Positions 8,220-45,135 of a DNA stretch of 48,418 nucleotides are shown piece by piece. Both the position numbers and the translations under genes were made by a program. Positions within the stretch are counted from its first letter, which is position 1; each line of letters begins with the position of its first letter. Origin of the DNA: Pleurocapsales cyanobacterium LEGE 06147 (GTDB lineage: Bacteria; Cyanobacteriota; Cyanobacteriia; Cyanobacteriales; Xenococcaceae); contig JADEWQ010000038.1 in assembly GCA_015207585.1 (NCBI GenBank), positions 1-48,418 on the forward strand, written 5' to 3'. Under the pieces are notes generated by a model. That model was not told the DNA's origin and did no database searches. It saw nothing but the letters and a program-made list of their open reading frames with translations.

Positions 8220-9734
8220 TTGCTAAGTTTTCTCAAGCGATTATTCTTACAAAGTCGCCTGCTAGCTCCCTTATATGTAAGTTTTTGTTTGCTGGTACTA
8301 CTGGCAATGGCACAAGGGACTCTTAGTGTCTTGCTCGAAATCTACTATCAGCAAACCGCCAGTTGGATGACTCATTCTTTACTTGTAGAACGGCAAACAG
8401 AACGTCTACTCAGTGCAGCACTCGACGAACAAACGAGTCTAAGGGGTTATTTACTCACAGAGGATAAAACTTTTTTAGAGCCTTATCGAATGAAGGCACA
8501 AACCAATTTTGACAACAGCTTTAATCAACTACAGAACTTGGTAAAGCATAATCCTACTCAACTTCAGAATCTAAAACAGCTCAAAGAAATTTACGATAAT
8601 TGGCAAAAGCAATTTGCCCAAAATGTACTGGCAGGCACTGCAAACAAAACAACTCTCCCTGGGAAAACTTTGTTCGATCCGATGCGTCCTATTATAGATG
8701 AGCTGTTGAAGAATGAAGAGAGAGTTTTTAATCAACGTAAGCAGGAGTTTCAACAACTAAGTCAACTAAAAACAGCTTTAGATATTTTCAGTTTGGGAAT
8801 TATTTTAGCTGGTGTCGGCTGGAATCTTTGGCTTTTACATCGTCGTGTCGAACTTCCTTTACTTCATTTAACTGAAGTCGGTCAAGCTTGGCGAAGAGGC
8901 AATTTAGAAGTTCGTTTGAACTATTCATCTCGTGATGAAATTGGTCGGCTGGCTGAAGTACTCGACACCATGGCAAGTGAAATTCGTTCTCGTCAAGAAC
9001 TGAATCAAAAGCGCAACCAACAGCTTGAAAGCTTAATTTCTGCTCTTTCCCACGATCTGCGGACTCCTCTGCTTGCTACTCGTACCACTCTGCGCCCCAT
9101 GCTTAATGGTGCATTTGGTTCTGTAAGTGACACCTGGCGAGAAGTGCTGGAAGAATACTATCAATCCAATGAAAATCTTCTCAAATTAGTAGAAACTCTC
9201 TTGGATGTTTCTCGCTACGAAGCTGGGGGCAGCAAAAATCTGAGCTATGAACCTCTTAACTGGGAGAAAATTGTTGCCCGAGTGAAAACTCAGATCGAGG
9301 CTAGTTATCAAAAGCAGTGTACTATTACTACAAATATTTCGCCATCTCTTCCTACTGTTTGTGGCGATCCGCTGGAGATTCAACGAGTGCTGCAGAATCT
9401 ATTGGATAATGCAGTACGAGTGAGCGAGCCAGATCGACCGATAATAATTGAGATAGTTCCGTTGGATACTAGCAGAGTAAAGGTTTCCGTGCGCGATCGC
9501 GGACCGGGAATTGCACCCTCCGACAGGGAGCGTCTCTTCCATCGTTTTATTCAGGGGCGAGGCAGGCGGGGAGGAGCAGGATTAGGTCTCTACTTATGTC
9601 GCCAGATTGTTGAGGCTCATGGTGGCACAATTAATGTAGAAAGCACTCTCGGCGAGGGTAGTGTTTTTTGGTTTACCCTTCCGGCAGCAACCAATAATTT
9701 TACACGCATGAATGACGCGGGGACGCGGAGATAA
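8220..9734 (+). CDS. Membrane sensor histidine kinase (CHASE3-like, HAMP, HisKA, HATPase)
   Basis: 504 residues from TTG 8220, the only upstream start; an internal start is possible because no clear ribosome binding site is seen. A first membrane helix (about 15-40), a helical periplasmic CHASE3-like domain (45-180, with QTSLRGYLLT..EDKTFLEPY), a second helix (187-206), HAMP (207-260), a dimerisation domain with phospho-acceptor His278 in ALSHDLRTPL, and an ATPase domain (LLDNAVRVSE, RDRGPGIAPS, GAGLGLYLC) follow in order. It autophosphorylates and should donate to the response regulator encoded next. Its final codons come from a GACGCGG repeat. Confidence 0.88.
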   Translation: MLSFLKRLFLQSRLLAPLYVSFCLLVLLAMAQGTLSVLLEIYYQQTASWMTHSLLVERQTERLLSAALDEQTSLRGYLLTEDKTFLEPYRMKAQTNFDNSFNQLQNLVKHNPTQLQNLKQLKEIYDNWQKQFAQNVLAGTANKTTLPGKTLFDPMRPIIDELLKNEERVFNQRKQEFQQLSQLKTALDIFSLGIILAGVGWNLWLLHRRVELPLLHLTEVGQAWRRGNLEVRLNYSSRDEIGRLAEVLDTMASEIRSRQELNQKRNQQLESLISALSHDLRTPLLATRTTLRPMLNGAFGSVSDTWREVLEEYYQSNENLLKLVETLLDVSRYEAGGSKNLSYEPLNWEKIVARVKTQIEASYQKQCTITTNISPSLPTVCGDPLEIQRVLQNLLDNAVRVSEPDRPIIIEIVPLDTSRVKVSVRDRGPGIAPSDRERLFHRFIQGRGRRGGAGLGLYLCRQIVEAHGGTINVESTLGEGSVFWFTLPAATNNFTRMNDAGTRR

Positions 9735-39541: not shown

Positions 39542-40075
39542 ATGAAACTTAAATCTTTAGCCGGAATGCTCGCGGGATTAGCTTTGACATTTGGTGCAAC
39601 AGCTACTTTCTCCGAGCCAAGCCAAGCCAATTCCAATACTTACTATTGTGCTCAACTTAACGGTATCTGGAATACCTTTGTAAATACTCCAAGAGGAAGA
39701 ATTACGCTGATTAACTGGGTAAGGGATTATTCCGAGGACTGGACTCCTCAAAGACGTTGTCTGGAAGTCTCCAAGAGATTTCAGAAATTTTTAGAAGACG
39801 GTACTCTTAAATATATCCGTACTGGTACGGTCAATCGCCAGCCGGTTATCTGTGTGGCGAACGAGCGCGGAGGTACTTGTCCCGATCGAAACGTCTTGGT
39901 TACCTTTAAGCCGGGAACCGATCCAGAAGAAGTGCTCATTCAATTAGTAGATTTTCGTCGAAGTGTTAGCGGTCAAACCATCGTTCTTAGCGAAGATGAC
40001 TCTGGTTTTTACGCCGATGGCGAATTTTATGTCGATCTCGCTAAATTTTTGGACACGGTTCCCGTAAGCAATTAA
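39542..40075 (+). CDS. COP23 domain protein
   Basis: 177 residues. A signal peptide (MKLKSLAGMLAGLALTFGAT, cleavage near SQA-NSN) marks a secreted protein. The mature part matches the COP23 family, named for a circadian-oscillating cyanobacterial membrane protein: YYCAQLNGIWNT, INWVRDYSEDWTPQRRCLEV SKRFQKF, KYIRTGTVNRQPVICVANER GGTCPDRNVLVTFKPGTDPE. Four cysteines could form two disulfides outside the cytoplasm. It begins a three-gene group with two secreted trypsin-like proteases; the next gene starts 11 bases after its stop. Confidence 0.85.
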   Translation: MKLKSLAGMLAGLALTFGATATFSEPSQANSNTYYCAQLNGIWNTFVNTPRGRITLINWVRDYSEDWTPQRRCLEVSKRFQKFLEDGTLKYIRTGTVNRQPVICVANERGGTCPDRNVLVTFKPGTDPEEVLIQLVDFRRSVSGQTIVLSEDDSGFYADGEFYVDLAKFLDTVPVSN

Positions 40076-40086
40076 ATAACTAATGA

Positions 40087-41115
40087 ATGAAGTTGTGGCA
40101 CCTTTGGAGAAAATCTAAGCCCCTTAACTTCTATGACTCAGCCAAGAGGTACTCTTTCAACTTGAAATCTCAGATTGTTAAGCTGGTAATTTGTCTAGCT
40201 AGTATAACTCTAGTCATGCCAGGAGATGTTTCTCGTTTTAAAACTAAAACTCTGGCATCGTCATCCCCGCAGTTACTCATCACCGAAATCGATCGAATTG
40301 CCGCTGATATTACAGTCGAAATTTTAGGAATTGAATCCTTGGGTTCGGGAATTATTCTGAACCGACAGGGAGACACTTATACTGTGGTCACCAATCAGCA
40401 CGTACTCCGAACGGCAAAATCTCCCTATCGAATTAAAACTTCTGATGGGTCGATCCATCCAGCTATAGTTGTCCCAACTGTTATCTCAACTAAATACGAC
40501 CTAGCTTTGCTGCAGTTTTACCAGCCTGATAAAAGTTATCAAGCAGCCACAATCGGTAGATCCTCTTCTTTAATGGTAGGAGAATCAATCTTTGCTGCTG
40601 GCTTTCCTTCTCAGGAAAAAGAAGACAATGTCTCTAAGGGCGATCGCCGAAACAAAAATAGAGAAAAACCAGTCCTCAAAACTGGTCGGGTTACCGTAAT
40701 CTTAGACCAAGCTTTAGAAGAAGGTTATCAAATTGGTTACACTAATGATGTCAAGAAGGGTATGAGTGGTGGTCCTTTACTCAATATTCGGGGGGAGGTA
40801 ATAGGAATTAATGGCAAACATGCTTATCCTTTATGGGATGCTCCAGACTTTTATGAGGATGGCTCCCAACCCTGTCCCCCTCTACAAGAACTGATTACTC
40901 GCTCTAGTTTGGCTATTCCCATTGAAAAGATAGTAGAGCTAACGCCAAAATTAGTTTTTTCTCCCCGAGCGATCGATGACAATCGGTCGGTGATAAGGCT
41001 AGACTCAGACAGAAAGAGTGGTACTGCCGAATTAATTGACAAAATGCAAGTAGAAGTAGAAGCGCGCAAAAATTGTGAAGAGGTACCAAACGAGTCACAG
41101 TTAATTCGTCCTTAA
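40087..41115 (+). CDS. Secreted trypsin-like serine protease
   Basis: 342 residues. The N-terminus is basic with a hydrophobic stretch (IVKLVICLASITLVMPG at 30-46), acting as a signal peptide or a membrane anchor. The S1-type protease domain spans about 70-300, with catalytic His105 (VVTNQHVL), Asp138 (KYDLALL) and Ser227 (KKGMSGGPL). LGSGIILNRQGDTYTVVTN is the barrel start shared with the next gene's protease domain. There is no PDZ domain as in HtrA proteins. It is translationally close to COP23 (11-base gap), which suggests that the two are co-expressed. Confidence 0.88.
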   Translation: MKLWHLWRKSKPLNFYDSAKRYSFNLKSQIVKLVICLASITLVMPGDVSRFKTKTLASSSPQLLITEIDRIAADITVEILGIESLGSGIILNRQGDTYTVVTNQHVLRTAKSPYRIKTSDGSIHPAIVVPTVISTKYDLALLQFYQPDKSYQAATIGRSSSLMVGESIFAAGFPSQEKEDNVSKGDRRNKNREKPVLKTGRVTVILDQALEEGYQIGYTNDVKKGMSGGPLLNIRGEVIGINGKHAYPLWDAPDFYEDGSQPCPPLQELITRSSLAIPIEKIVELTPKLVFSPRAIDDNRSVIRLDSDRKSGTAELIDKMQVEVEARKNCEEVPNESQLIRP

Positions 41116-41231
41116 AGGGCGGGGCAGTTTTGAAGGGGCACAAAGTTAGTGTTTATGTGCTGCCTGCTTAGACTTCCTAAGGGGCTGAACCCTGGTTCGT
41201 ACGCTCCGTCAGGCTCATCGGAGGCAATAGA

Positions 41232-43037
41232 ATGAATTTTTCCCGCACAGCAACTGGAGTTTTAGTAGGAATAATTTTTGCCGCAGCCGGACAACCAAGT
41301 CTGACTATGGCACGAGAACAACAAATAGCTCAGGCTTTAGCTCCCGAACAAATTAACCTTCGTGCCAAACAAATTACGGTACGCATAGATGGTGACGGTA
41401 CTGGCTCTGGAGTAATTGTAGGGCAGTCGGGCAATAGTTACACCGTAATTACCAACTGGCACATAGTTAAAAATCCAGGACAATATTCAGTACAAACAAC
41501 TGATGGGAGAGAACATCCGGTCGAATATGCGACAGTAAGACAGTTGGCTGGATTAGATTTAGCAGTGCTGCAATTTGCTAGCAATCAAAATTATCAATTG
41601 GCAGAAATAGGTAACTCTAATGGTTTAATTGAAGGTCAAAATGTTTACTTTGCAGGCTACCCGGGCGAGTTACGACAAGAAGATAATCGCTATTATCGTT
41701 TTTTTTCTGCTAACTTGGTAGGTATTTTGCCTCAAGCTACAGAAAACGGTTATGCACTCATCTACAATGGAGAAGCCTTTCCCGGAATGAGTGGGGGACC
41801 AGTATTCGATCGTAATGGTCGCTTAATCGGTATTCATGGCGAAGCTAATATCCATGCCCGTACTGGGGCAACATCCAACTACGCTATTGCGATCGAGAAA
41901 TATCAGCAAGCGATCGCCTCCAATCCAGAACCAGCAAGTGGTACTAATGAAGCTCCATCGGAACCCACACCGACAGCCACCAACGAACAAACTCCCCCCG
42001 AAGTTAGTGAAGCTCCATCGAAACCCGCACCGACAGCTACTAACCCCGATGAACCAGTAACTGAACCTCAACCCTCATCTACTCCATCTGAGCCTACACC
42101 GACAGCTACCAACGAGCAAACTCCCCCCGAAGTTACGGTTGATACTGGAGCAGCTCCTAACCCCAATCAAGCAGAAACTACACCTCAAACTGCTGCAGAT
42201 CCTTCAGTCGAGCAAACATCGACACCTTTAGCAGATAATATCGAGCAGAATCCCTCGCTAATTGAATCAGAAGGAAATATAAACTCGTCACCGATTGGGT
42301 CGGTACCTACCTTTACACCTTCTAACTCTTCTGTTGCTCCCAGTCCTGTCGAGTCCAATCCTGTTACTCCCCGTCCTACTGTTTCTCCACCATCCTCCAC
42401 TCCTAATCCTGCTGTTTCCCAACCATCCTCTCTAATTTCTGCTCAAACGGGAATAGATTATACTCCACTGCGTAACTTGTTAGCCGAAGGTAAATGGGAA
42501 GAAGCAGACCGCCAAACTTACGATCTAATCGAGCAAATTATTAAAACTGCTAAAAGACGCAATCCTCACACTTTTATTGAGTTAAGAACAATCGCGGAAT
42601 TTTCTTGTCCTGATGTGGCAACTATCGATCGCTTATGGAGGAAACATAGTGGCGGACGATACGGCTTCAGTCCACAACAGCAAATATGGCAAACTGTTAA
42701 TCAAAATGGAGATTTTTCTACAGAAACCTGGCGGAGTTTCGCTACGCAAGTAGGCTGGAAGCACGGAGATATTGCCAGTAGCACTGGCTATCTTTTATAC
42801 GAACAATTGATTTTTAATCCAGAAACAGCTCCTATGGGTCACCTTCCTTGGTGGTTTGCCTTACCTGAAGAATCACAGAATGTAATCAAACACATCTTTT
42901 CTCGTTGTAACCTCAATGAGGTTAAACAAAATAATCTTAACCAGGTTAGGCAAGAAAACGAAGTTAGACCAGTATCGACTCCTAAGAAAGAGTCAGTAGG
43001 GGCGAATGGCCATTCGCCCGTACGGGAGTCAGAATAA
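41232..43037 (+). CDS. Secreted protease-GUN4 fusion protein
   Basis: 601 residues. A signal peptide (1-27, MNFSRTATGVLVGIIFAAAG.. SLTMA) leads into a trypsin-like domain (about 40-225) with His77 (TNWHIV), Asp109 (LDLAVL) and Ser187 (GMSGGPV). A Pro/Thr/Ser-rich linker (230-405) contains three copies of EAPSEPTPTATNEQTPPEV. Residues 409-541 form a GUN4 domain: YTPLRNLLAEGKWEEADRQT, CPDVATIDRLWRKHSGGRYG FSPQQQIW, VGWK and APMGHLPWW. GUN4 normally binds tetrapyrroles in the cytoplasm; here it would sit outside. The last residues come from a palindrome repeat. It follows the other protease by 116 bases. Confidence 0.9.
   Translation: MNFSRTATGVLVGIIFAAAGQPSLTMAREQQIAQALAPEQINLRAKQITVRIDGDGTGSGVIVGQSGNSYTVITNWHIVKNPGQYSVQTTDGREHPVEYATVRQLAGLDLAVLQFASNQNYQLAEIGNSNGLIEGQNVYFAGYPGELRQEDNRYYRFFSANLVGILPQATENGYALIYNGEAFPGMSGGPVFDRNGRLIGIHGEANIHARTGATSNYAIAIEKYQQAIASNPEPASGTNEAPSEPTPTATNEQTPPEVSEAPSKPAPTATNPDEPVTEPQPSSTPSEPTPTATNEQTPPEVTVDTGAAPNPNQAETTPQTAADPSVEQTSTPLADNIEQNPSLIESEGNINSSPIGSVPTFTPSNSSVAPSPVESNPVTPRPTVSPPSSTPNPAVSQPSSLISAQTGIDYTPLRNLLAEGKWEEADRQTYDLIEQIIKTAKRRNPHTFIELRTIAEFSCPDVATIDRLWRKHSGGRYGFSPQQQIWQTVNQNGDFSTETWRSFATQVGWKHGDIASSTGYLLYEQLIFNPETAPMGHLPWWFALPEESQNVIKHIFSRCNLNEVKQNNLNQVRQENEVRPVSTPKKESVGANGHSPVRESE
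41949..42134. repeat. In-frame tandem repeats in the linker of the protease-GUN4 gene
   Basis: Three imperfect copies of a 54-60-base unit encode APSEPTPTATNEQTPPEV, then APSKPAPTATN, then TPSEPTPTATNEQTPPEV. They lie in the Pro/Thr linker between the protease and GUN4 domains. The copies keep the reading frame, so the linker length could vary between strains. Confidence 0.8.
43000..43019. repeat. 20-bp perfect palindrome inside a coding end
   Basis: GGGCGAATGGCCATTCGCCC is its own complement. It is part of a widespread cyanobacterial repeat of the GTAGGGGCGAATGGCC type and lies inside the last codons of the protease-GUN4 gene, encoding GANGHSP. Confidence 0.85.
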
Positions 43038-44008: not shown

Positions 44009-44293
44009 TTATGCTTGTAATTTTCTAGCCTGTTTGACCATCTCGCTCAAAGTATAATGAGCATCTTCTGCGTCTTTGAGAGTATGATCGAATTCGATCC
44101 TGACAGAAACAGTTTCGCCGTCAATAGTGGCAGCTAAATTTAGCCCTTGGGGATCGATCGAAATCATTTTGGCTGCTTCTGTCTGGGGAGAATTCCCAAA
44201 CGCTTTGGCGTATAAAACCAATGCATCGGCGTGATCTTCATTCATGTGTTTGCAGATGCGATCGCTAATTGCGGGAGTAATTGTTTCAGACAT
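44009..44293 (-). CDS. DUF2470 domain protein
   Basis: 94 residues, a single DUF2470 domain: ISDRICKHMNEDHADALVLY AKAFG, a MISIDPQGLNLAATI strand and VRIEFDHTLKDAEDAHYTLS EMVKQARKL. The HMNEDHADAL motif is the one found at the C-terminus of heme-related HugZ-type proteins and pyridoxamine-oxidase-like proteins. Stand-alone copies are common in cyanobacteria. Its start overlaps the end of cobK by eight bases, so translation is probably coupled and the function may concern tetrapyrroles. Confidence 0.9.
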   Translation of the reverse strand: MSETITPAISDRICKHMNEDHADALVLYAKAFGNSPQTEAAKMISIDPQGLNLAATIDGETVSVRIEFDHTLKDAEDAHYTLSEMVKQARKLQA

Positions 44294-45068
44294 ATTTAAA
44301 ATAATGCTCGCGACAAAAAACCATAATTTCGTTTATACATGAAGTTTGTTGCGGATAAACAACTTTTGGTCGGGTAATGACAATTAGTCCAATACCTAAC
44401 TCTTTTGCCACCGCACGTTTAATATCCTCTCCTCCAGGTTTACCAGAAGCTTTCGTTACCACTAGCGAAATCTGCCATTGTCGCCACAAAGCCTTTTCTA
44501 ATTCTGCGCCGATGGGAGGACGGAGGGCAATAATTTTCTCTGATGTAAAGCCGGCAGCAAGAGCAACTTCTACTGATTCTAACTTAGGCAGAATCCGTGC
44601 AAATAGAGTCGAACGATGGTGCCAGGACTTAAACAAAGGTAAAGCCTGACAACCAACAGTTAATAATACCCTTTCTCCTTGCAGATAATTGCCTTCGATC
44701 AGACTTTCAAAGCTATCCAACTCAACAACAGATTCGGTATTTTTAATCGATAACTGGTGTACTAAAGGGCGTTCGTAGCGGAGATAGGGAATCCCAATGG
44801 CTGTAGCAGTAGCGATCGCATTTTGGGATACTTCAACTGCGTAGGGATGAGAAGCATCTACTATTGCAGCAATATTTCCTTGTCTACAAAAATGGCTCAT
44901 GGCTGCCCTATCCATGCGTCCTACCCATACCTCACAATCGGGAGGATAAAGAGATCGTGCTGCGCTCGTTGCAACAGCGATCGCCAAAGGTAATCTAGTT
45001 GTAGCGATCGCTTTAGCAATAGTAACACTTTCTTTAGTGCCGCCAATCAACCAGATTTTTCTCTCCAT
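44286..45068 (-). CDS. cobK: Precorrin-6A reductase CobK/CbiJ
   Basis: 260 residues from ATG 45068, which follows GGAGAAC; a TTG three codons earlier is less likely. It reduces precorrin-6A with NADPH in cobalamin synthesis. The N-terminal motif is IWLIGGTKESVTIAKAIA. ASHPYAVEVSQNAIA holds the conserved His-Pro, followed by IPYLRYERP, VLLTVGCQALPLF and LFARILPK. The end carries VVTKASGKPGGEDIKRAVAK and IVITRPKV. It is co-directional with and overlapping the DUF2470 gene. No other cobalamin gene is in the window. Confidence 0.92.
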   Translation of the reverse strand: MERKIWLIGGTKESVTIAKAIATTRLPLAIAVATSAARSLYPPDCEVWVGRMDRAAMSHFCRQGNIAAIVDASHPYAVEVSQNAIATATAIGIPYLRYERPLVHQLSIKNTESVVELDSFESLIEGNYLQGERVLLTVGCQALPLFKSWHHRSTLFARILPKLESVEVALAAGFTSEKIIALRPPIGAELEKALWRQWQISLVVTKASGKPGGEDIKRAVAKELGIGLIVITRPKVVYPQQTSCINEIMVFCREHYFKYV

Positions 45069-45135
45069 GTTCTCCAAAAGTTATTAATTTTAATCCCGAG
45101 CGAGCTTTTACTGGTAACTGGCGATTAAAAACTAT

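Follow-up and report, generated by a model that had tools for sequence, protein, structure and literature searches.

A recurrent neighbourhood of COP23 and trypsin-like protease genes in cyanobacteria, read as a candidate exported proteolytic module

COP23 (the circadian oscillating polypeptide family, PF14218) is named for a daily rhythm, and the available text of the published accounts (PMC6315102, PMC11131595, PMC10153697) deals with how it is expressed or, at most, with a part that it might play in membrane function, with no protease partner mentioned there. The closest described relatives of the proteases treated here are the HtrA/Deg proteases (S1C) and the V8-like glutamyl endopeptidases and exfoliative toxins (S1B), and Kaur et al. 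2020 (PMC7159879) had already pointed out a fusion of GUN4 with trypsin; in the portion available, they interpret GUN4 as sensing intracellular tetrapyrrole within conflict systems. Here we describe a gene group of Pleurocapsales cyanobacterium LEGE 06147 in which these known families stand together, encoding a COP23 protein and two trypsin-like proteases, the second of them fused to GUN4. It lies at positions 39,542–43,037 of a stretch of 48,418 nucleotides (the window; JADEWQ010000038.1, contig 12 of the 6.23-Mb genome). We read it, at about an even chance of being right, as an exported proteolytic module in which COP23 is the dedicated non-catalytic partner of one or two trypsin-like proteases; the components are all of known families, and the whole would be an exported protease operon with such a partner. 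A first-pass annotation of the DNA had supposed that the set has not been described as a system, and in the open-licence literature we likewise found no published description of a COP23–protease system; GUN4 and COP23 do not occur in the available text of a 2008 serine protease survey, nor does trypsin in that of a 2023 GUN4 paper.

All three genes are on the forward strand, and their open reading frames agree to the base with the first-pass annotation, including the four cysteines of COP23 and the 11-bp gap behind its gene. The COP23 gene (39,542–40,075) encodes 177 amino acid residues with an N-terminal hydrophobic leader, and the protein matches PF14218 over the full profile (E 2.1e-38; 131.6 bits with a cut-off of 27; profile positions 1–138 of 138). 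After the gap (40,076–40,086) follows the gene for protease 1 (40,087–41,115; 342 residues; PF13365, Trypsin_2, E 3.2e-23), which is predicted to be exported or membrane-anchored. The gene for protease 2 (41,232–43,037; 601 residues) begins 116 bp further on and encodes a leader, a trypsin-like domain at residues 58–201 (PF13365, E 6.5e-24) and a C-terminal GUN4 domain at residues 405–544 (PF05419, E 7.6e-31). Because the first gap is only 11 bp, it suggests that COP23 and protease 1 share one transcript, and the whole group may be transcribed together. A promoter and terminator scan gave nothing clearly above shuffles, Rfam gave no match at gathering scores, and the 116-bp spacer proved to be single copy in the genome in a repeat check.

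In an alignment of 31 COP23 proteins whose genes adjoin a trypsin gene, the cysteines C36, C73, C104 and C113 are invariant together with W59, R72 and G95, and the cysteines may form disulfides. The catalytic triads, taken as complete at first sight, are indeed intact (H/D/S) in both window proteases: H77/D109/S187 of protease 2 is invariant in an alignment of 59 long proteases, and the triad of protease 1 is shared by 27 of 27 first proteases in sets of two. As to the earlier statement that all three proteins are exported, a hydrophobic N-terminal stretch was found in each of them, and export is predicted from this stretch alone, leaders having been called with a Kyte-Doolittle script only and no signal-peptide predictor. 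In related clusters the hydrophobic N-terminus is present in 59/59 COP23 proteins, 26/27 first proteases and 27/27 second proteases, and a further hydrophobic stretch beyond residue 70 occurs in three, seven and four of them, respectively.

The neighbourhood is not unique to this genome; it is real and recurs across families, in relatives, across the phylum and on plasmids, as became clear when the COP23–trypsin neighbours were counted in the way the first-pass annotation had proposed. The genome itself has 5 COP23 genes and 12 Trypsin_2 genes, and its contig 111 carries a second cluster of the same order, namely COP23 (231 residues), a protease (298 residues, 10 bp on) and a TPR-bearing protease (646 residues). 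A PDZ_2 match is found in seven of the 12 Trypsin_2 genes, and four of the remaining five sit in the two COP23 clusters. In the comparison set, COP23 occurs in 39 of 40 genomes among the matches listed, the source genome included. One genus was over-represented, and six of its genomes (G017, G019 and G021–G024; 22 rows) were left out before the main count. Of the 129 COP23 matches chosen, 127 from 33 genomes were read together with their surroundings, G011:C194 and G030:C102 being unfetched. At 60 of the 127 loci a trypsin gene lies on the same strand within 300 bp, compared with a background of one trypsin gene in 418,300 bases of DNA situated over 3 kb away from COP23 genes. Within this distance the trypsin gene is downstream at 55 loci (same strand, gaps of 1–278 bp) and upstream at seven, these counts overlapping, and on the opposite strand at three. 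At least one linked or fused COP23 copy is present in 25 of the 33 genomes, counting only the matches read, and 28 of 59 first proteases have another trypsin gene behind them.

The linkage belongs to the short form of COP23 (<245 residues), for which a trypsin gene stands on the same strand no more than 300 bp away in 58 of 89 cases, compared with 1/33 of the long form (245–340 residues); the other five of the 127 rows are fused or larger proteins outside both classes. The long form, for example at 8,388–9,236 of locus L011 (contig 16) and in its relatives, seems to be a separate class and may have a function of its own. Another COP23 gene of the genome (locus L014, 4,538–8,738, contig 106) is followed by genes for a 329-residue protein with no Pfam match and an 802-residue protein with a CHAT domain, and COP23 may thus also pair with other peptidase folds. 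In addition, COP23 genes stand side by side in tandem at four loci (L203, L205, L050 and L051).

A phylum-wide draw found COP23 in 121 of 386 genomes, and a same-strand trypsin gene is located within 300 bp at 20 of 29 new loci, which were the best-scoring ones and not a random sample, and among which one locus (L208), having no callable COP23 reading frame, was scored as a miss. Furthermore, a search of named genomes for close COP23 alignments yielded 19 loci from genera including Pleurocapsa, Myxosarcina, Waterburya, Hyella, Xenococcus, Komarekiella and Nostoc, with a downstream same-strand trypsin gene at 16 of them, 15 within 300 bp (these genomes are partly shared with the other sets).

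COP23 also co-evolves with the neighbouring proteases. Its pairwise distances correlate with those of protease 1 (200–450 residues) at r = 0.69 over 40 pairs, a value reached by 0 of 2000 free shuffles (0.00 ± 0.04) and by 0 of 2000 shuffles of partners within genomes, which keep the species history (0.17 ± 0.09). With protease 2 the correlation is r = 0.90 over 27 sets, and again 0 of 2000 free shuffles reach it. Moreover, four natural fusions (L124, L160, L161 and L166) carry COP23 at the C-terminus of a trypsin-like protease. It could be argued that the genes are mere neighbours with a common promoter or a mobile history, each product acting alone, and in keeping with this many COP23 genes stand alone, and seven of the 14 relatives with the GUN4 fusion have it apart from COP23. 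Set against the recurrence across families, the co-evolution above within-genome shuffles and the fusions, we hold this explanation to be very unlikely.

The two proteases of a set differ in the predicted S1 pocket. We compared the residues five before and 15 after the catalytic serine (Ser−5 and Ser+15) in the protease-domain alignment, positions which we take to be the offsets of the Glu-binding residues in V8-type glutamyl endopeptidases. In the 27 first proteases, Ser+15 is Asn in 21, His in five and Ser in one, and Ser−5 is Ile or Val in 22 and Thr in five. Ser+15 of the second proteases is His in 27 of 27, and Ser−5 is Thr in 19, so that both signature residues occur in 19/27, the other eight (Ala or Pro) being the GUN4 fusions. 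The pocket with Thr and His is also found in 4/4 COP23-fused proteases. Proteases standing singly beside COP23 resemble the first type, with Asn in 23 of 31; the serine column is missing in two of these, one a 127-residue fragment and one with two trypsin domains. In the window, protease 1 has Val at Ser−5 and Asn at Ser+15, and protease 2 has Ala and His, which is half of the V8-like signature. These patterns suggest that first and second proteases differ in specificity and that the second ones may cut after Glu, both being predictions from aligned residues.

Compared with the HtrA/Deg family, both window proteases have a chymotrypsin-fold protease domain with TIGR02037 as the best curated match (E 1e-20 and 7e-17), and protease 1 has HtrA/Do chains as its nearest entries in PDB, besides the Asn at Ser+15. 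They differ from that family in that they score 74.1 and 61.4 bits, far below the 416.2 cut-off of the best model, in that no PDZ family is matched at E 0.01 in either, and in that they are encoded alongside COP23. In a sequence search, exfoliative toxins (exfoliative toxin A, E 5e-8, for the protease domain) and HtrA come out near protease 2. Second proteases share with the S1B group the His, and mostly the Thr, of the pocket; they differ from it in their C-terminal TPR, GUN4 or COP23 parts, in the Ala of the window copy and in that their specificity is a predicted one. Among 59 trypsin reading frames of at least 400 residues in the fetched loci, a TPR match is present in 35 and GUN4 in eight.

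The conserved neighbourhood, the co-evolution, the natural fusions, the pocket difference and the intact triads are observed, and on them we base the reading of an exported proteolytic module with COP23 as the non-catalytic partner. In such a module, two proteases would work as a cascade outside the cytoplasm, protease 1 with an HtrA-like pocket and protease 2 with one resembling that of glutamyl endopeptidases in its His and, in most cases, its Thr, and their differing specificities together with the C-terminal part of protease 2, presumably a replaceable recognition module (TPR, GUN4 or a second COP23), would set what is cut. COP23 would contact and tune the second, V8-like protease most directly, as adaptor, activator or inhibitor. 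A bolder version seems distinctly unlikely in all its parts: COP23, as an orphan clock-output protein, would be the regulatory subunit of a widespread exported two-protease cascade, in which the protease with the HtrA pocket activates a Glu-specific V8-like protease whose TPR, GUN4 or COP23 module chooses the targets, and timed COP23 synthesis would gate daily proteolysis outside the cytoplasm.

Several results weigh against the proteolytic module. A same-strand trypsin gene within 300 bp is absent from 31 of the 89 short COP23 genes, 23 having none within 1 kb, and since the long form is in addition almost never linked, COP23 also exists without a protease; in two genomes (G005, L077; G011, L075) the close COP23 relative has no adjoining trypsin gene. 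Of the 27 two-protease sets, five have His in both pockets; Ser−5 in protease 2 of the window is Ala and not Thr; the GUN4 fusion is often found away from COP23; and correlated distances are no proof of contact between COP23 and the proteases. The structure model of COP23 is middling (predicted local distance difference test, pLDDT, 73.7) and has no convincing fold match: Foldseek gave none at E 0.001 or better, and the top hit of VIA-align reached Z 4.3 over 52 residues. The model of the trypsin–GUN4 fusion (mean pLDDT 43.7) was not used.

Published expression data bear on another explanation, namely that COP23 is the main substrate or a pro-protein, matured or degraded by the adjoining proteases, for example at a set time of day. 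According to the accessible parts of three papers (PMC10153697, PMC11131595, PMC6315102), COP23 genes of UCYN-A rank with its top transcripts and are strongly diel, and in diatom spheroid bodies no gene is expressed more highly than a COP23 homologue, which shows no diel change. Such high levels might be expected of a turned-over protein, and adjacency and co-evolution would suit an enzyme–substrate pair as well, whereas the missing diel change in spheroid bodies does not fit, and COP23 placed C-terminal to a protease in one polypeptide, where TPR or GUN4 stand in others, would be odd for a substrate; altogether we consider it unlikely. One published result speaks for the proteolytic module: in a 2026 study of Arthrospira with microplastic (PMC13114239, Table 1), 21 changed genes include COP23 (RS07465, log2 −1.97) and two serine protease genes (RS07460, −2.08; RS07455, −2.10), whose tags are consecutive in steps of five, the adjacency being known from the tags alone. 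The fall of this trio concerns one condition and one species, and in the part of the text available COP23 is named once and the trio is not discussed. The circadian link of the window COP23 is by family name only. COP23 owes its name to a daily rhythm; through a protease partner that is conserved and co-evolves with it, its role becomes directly testable in culturable strains.

The neighbourhood is also found on plasmids. Eight plasmid records contain COP23 (four conjugative, three mobilizable and one non-mobilizable), and a serine protease or Trypsin_2 gene adjoins it in seven, COP23 being near the record start in the eighth. If the module exists as proposed, cyanobacteria possess a dedicated system for proteolysis outside the cytoplasm, carried in part on plasmids. 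The plasmids, some with toxin–antitoxin genes close by, would also agree with COP23 as a cognate inhibitor that shields the producing cell against the Glu-specific protease which it secretes, the set being a conflict or scavenging weapon partly spread by plasmids; COP23 is small, predicted to be exported, has conserved cysteines and mostly precedes the protease (55 downstream trypsin genes vs seven upstream). PADLOC, however, has no match for COP23, its matches to the proteases (LmuA, RT-Protease_XI, and PD-T4-6 over the GUN4 part) fit shared domains only, and the fold search gave neither a sign of an inhibitor fold nor an exclusion of one; this explanation appears rather improbable to us. A defence system was rejected on the same PADLOC results, and the window COP23 had no match in phage records. 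Two plasmids show further arrangements. In Cylindrospermopsis curvispora (L218, 128–5,654), COP23 and a serine protease gene lie between two separate GUN4-domain genes and a Ser/Thr kinase gene. In Stanieria sp. NIES-3757 (L253, 1,850–3,966), two short serine protease genes flank transposase genes upstream of COP23, where the plasmid of Stanieria PCC 7437 has one gene.

The GUN4 domain of protease 2 (42,444–42,863, forward strand) scores 107.6 bits with a gathering score of 29.2. The fusion is common in the family, with a match reaching the GUN4 part in 14 of 18 family genomes searched. In seven of these 14 relatives it is downstream of COP23 and protease 1 as in the window; in the other seven it is elsewhere, on the same contig about 0.9–1.1 Mb off in three (G013, G015 and G020) and on another draft contig in four. 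Therefore, of the one gene group that had been proposed, the COP23–protease 1 pair is conserved and the GUN4 fusion is a looser member. At locus L211, from another family, a further trypsin–GUN4 fusion stands immediately behind COP23. Across the phylum, 77 of 83 genomes matching the trypsin–GUN4 query (E 1e-25) have COP23 vs 44 of 303 non-matching ones, counts in which some matches are to the GUN4 part only and three candidates per genome were scored; they also weigh less in favour of the module in that they are uncorrected for shared ancestry, and six genomes match the protease query and have no COP23.

Arg214 of Synechocystis GUN4 contributes to porphyrin binding, according to the part of PMC8967248 available. 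We placed its equivalent at the sixth residue after GHLP, from the range of the 1Y6I match and the canonical paralogue. At this place Arg is missing in 9 of 9 fusions, the window protein having Pro; the canonical GUN4 paralogue of the genome (on C3) has the Arg, and other GUN4 paralogues of the genome likewise have none there. Hence a porphyrin role of the fused GUN4 is doubtful, and another ligand is possible. Of the idea of an exported processing or sensing module perhaps linked to tetrapyrroles, a conserved and probably exported processing module stands; tetrapyrrole sensing as its general theme was rejected, since GUN4 is one of several C-terminal modules (8/59 long proteases vs 35/59 with TPR) and the Arg214 equivalent is missing in all nine fusions. 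Like the fusions of Kaur et al. (PMC7159879, as far as available), the window protein joins GUN4 and trypsin in a single polypeptide; in contrast to the intracellular sensor read there, it has a leader, follows COP23 and has no arginine at the Arg214-equated place.

The five flanking genes scanned encode ChpXY, ArgJ, a methyltransferase, DUF2470 and CbiJ and show no link to the group, and none of the vWA, MoxR or VMAP genes of the VMAP/vWA-MoxR conflict systems is among them. The DUF2470 gene and the precorrin-6x reductase (CbiJ) gene are located at 44,009–45,077 on the reverse strand with an 8-base overlap, a tetrapyrrole gene thus being near the COP23 group and outside it. Finally, a perfect 20-base palindrome, GGGCGAATGGCCATTCGCCC, occupies positions 43,000–43,019 within the last codons of the trypsin–GUN4 gene, has one other exact copy in the genome and may be a repeat that lengthened this reading frame.

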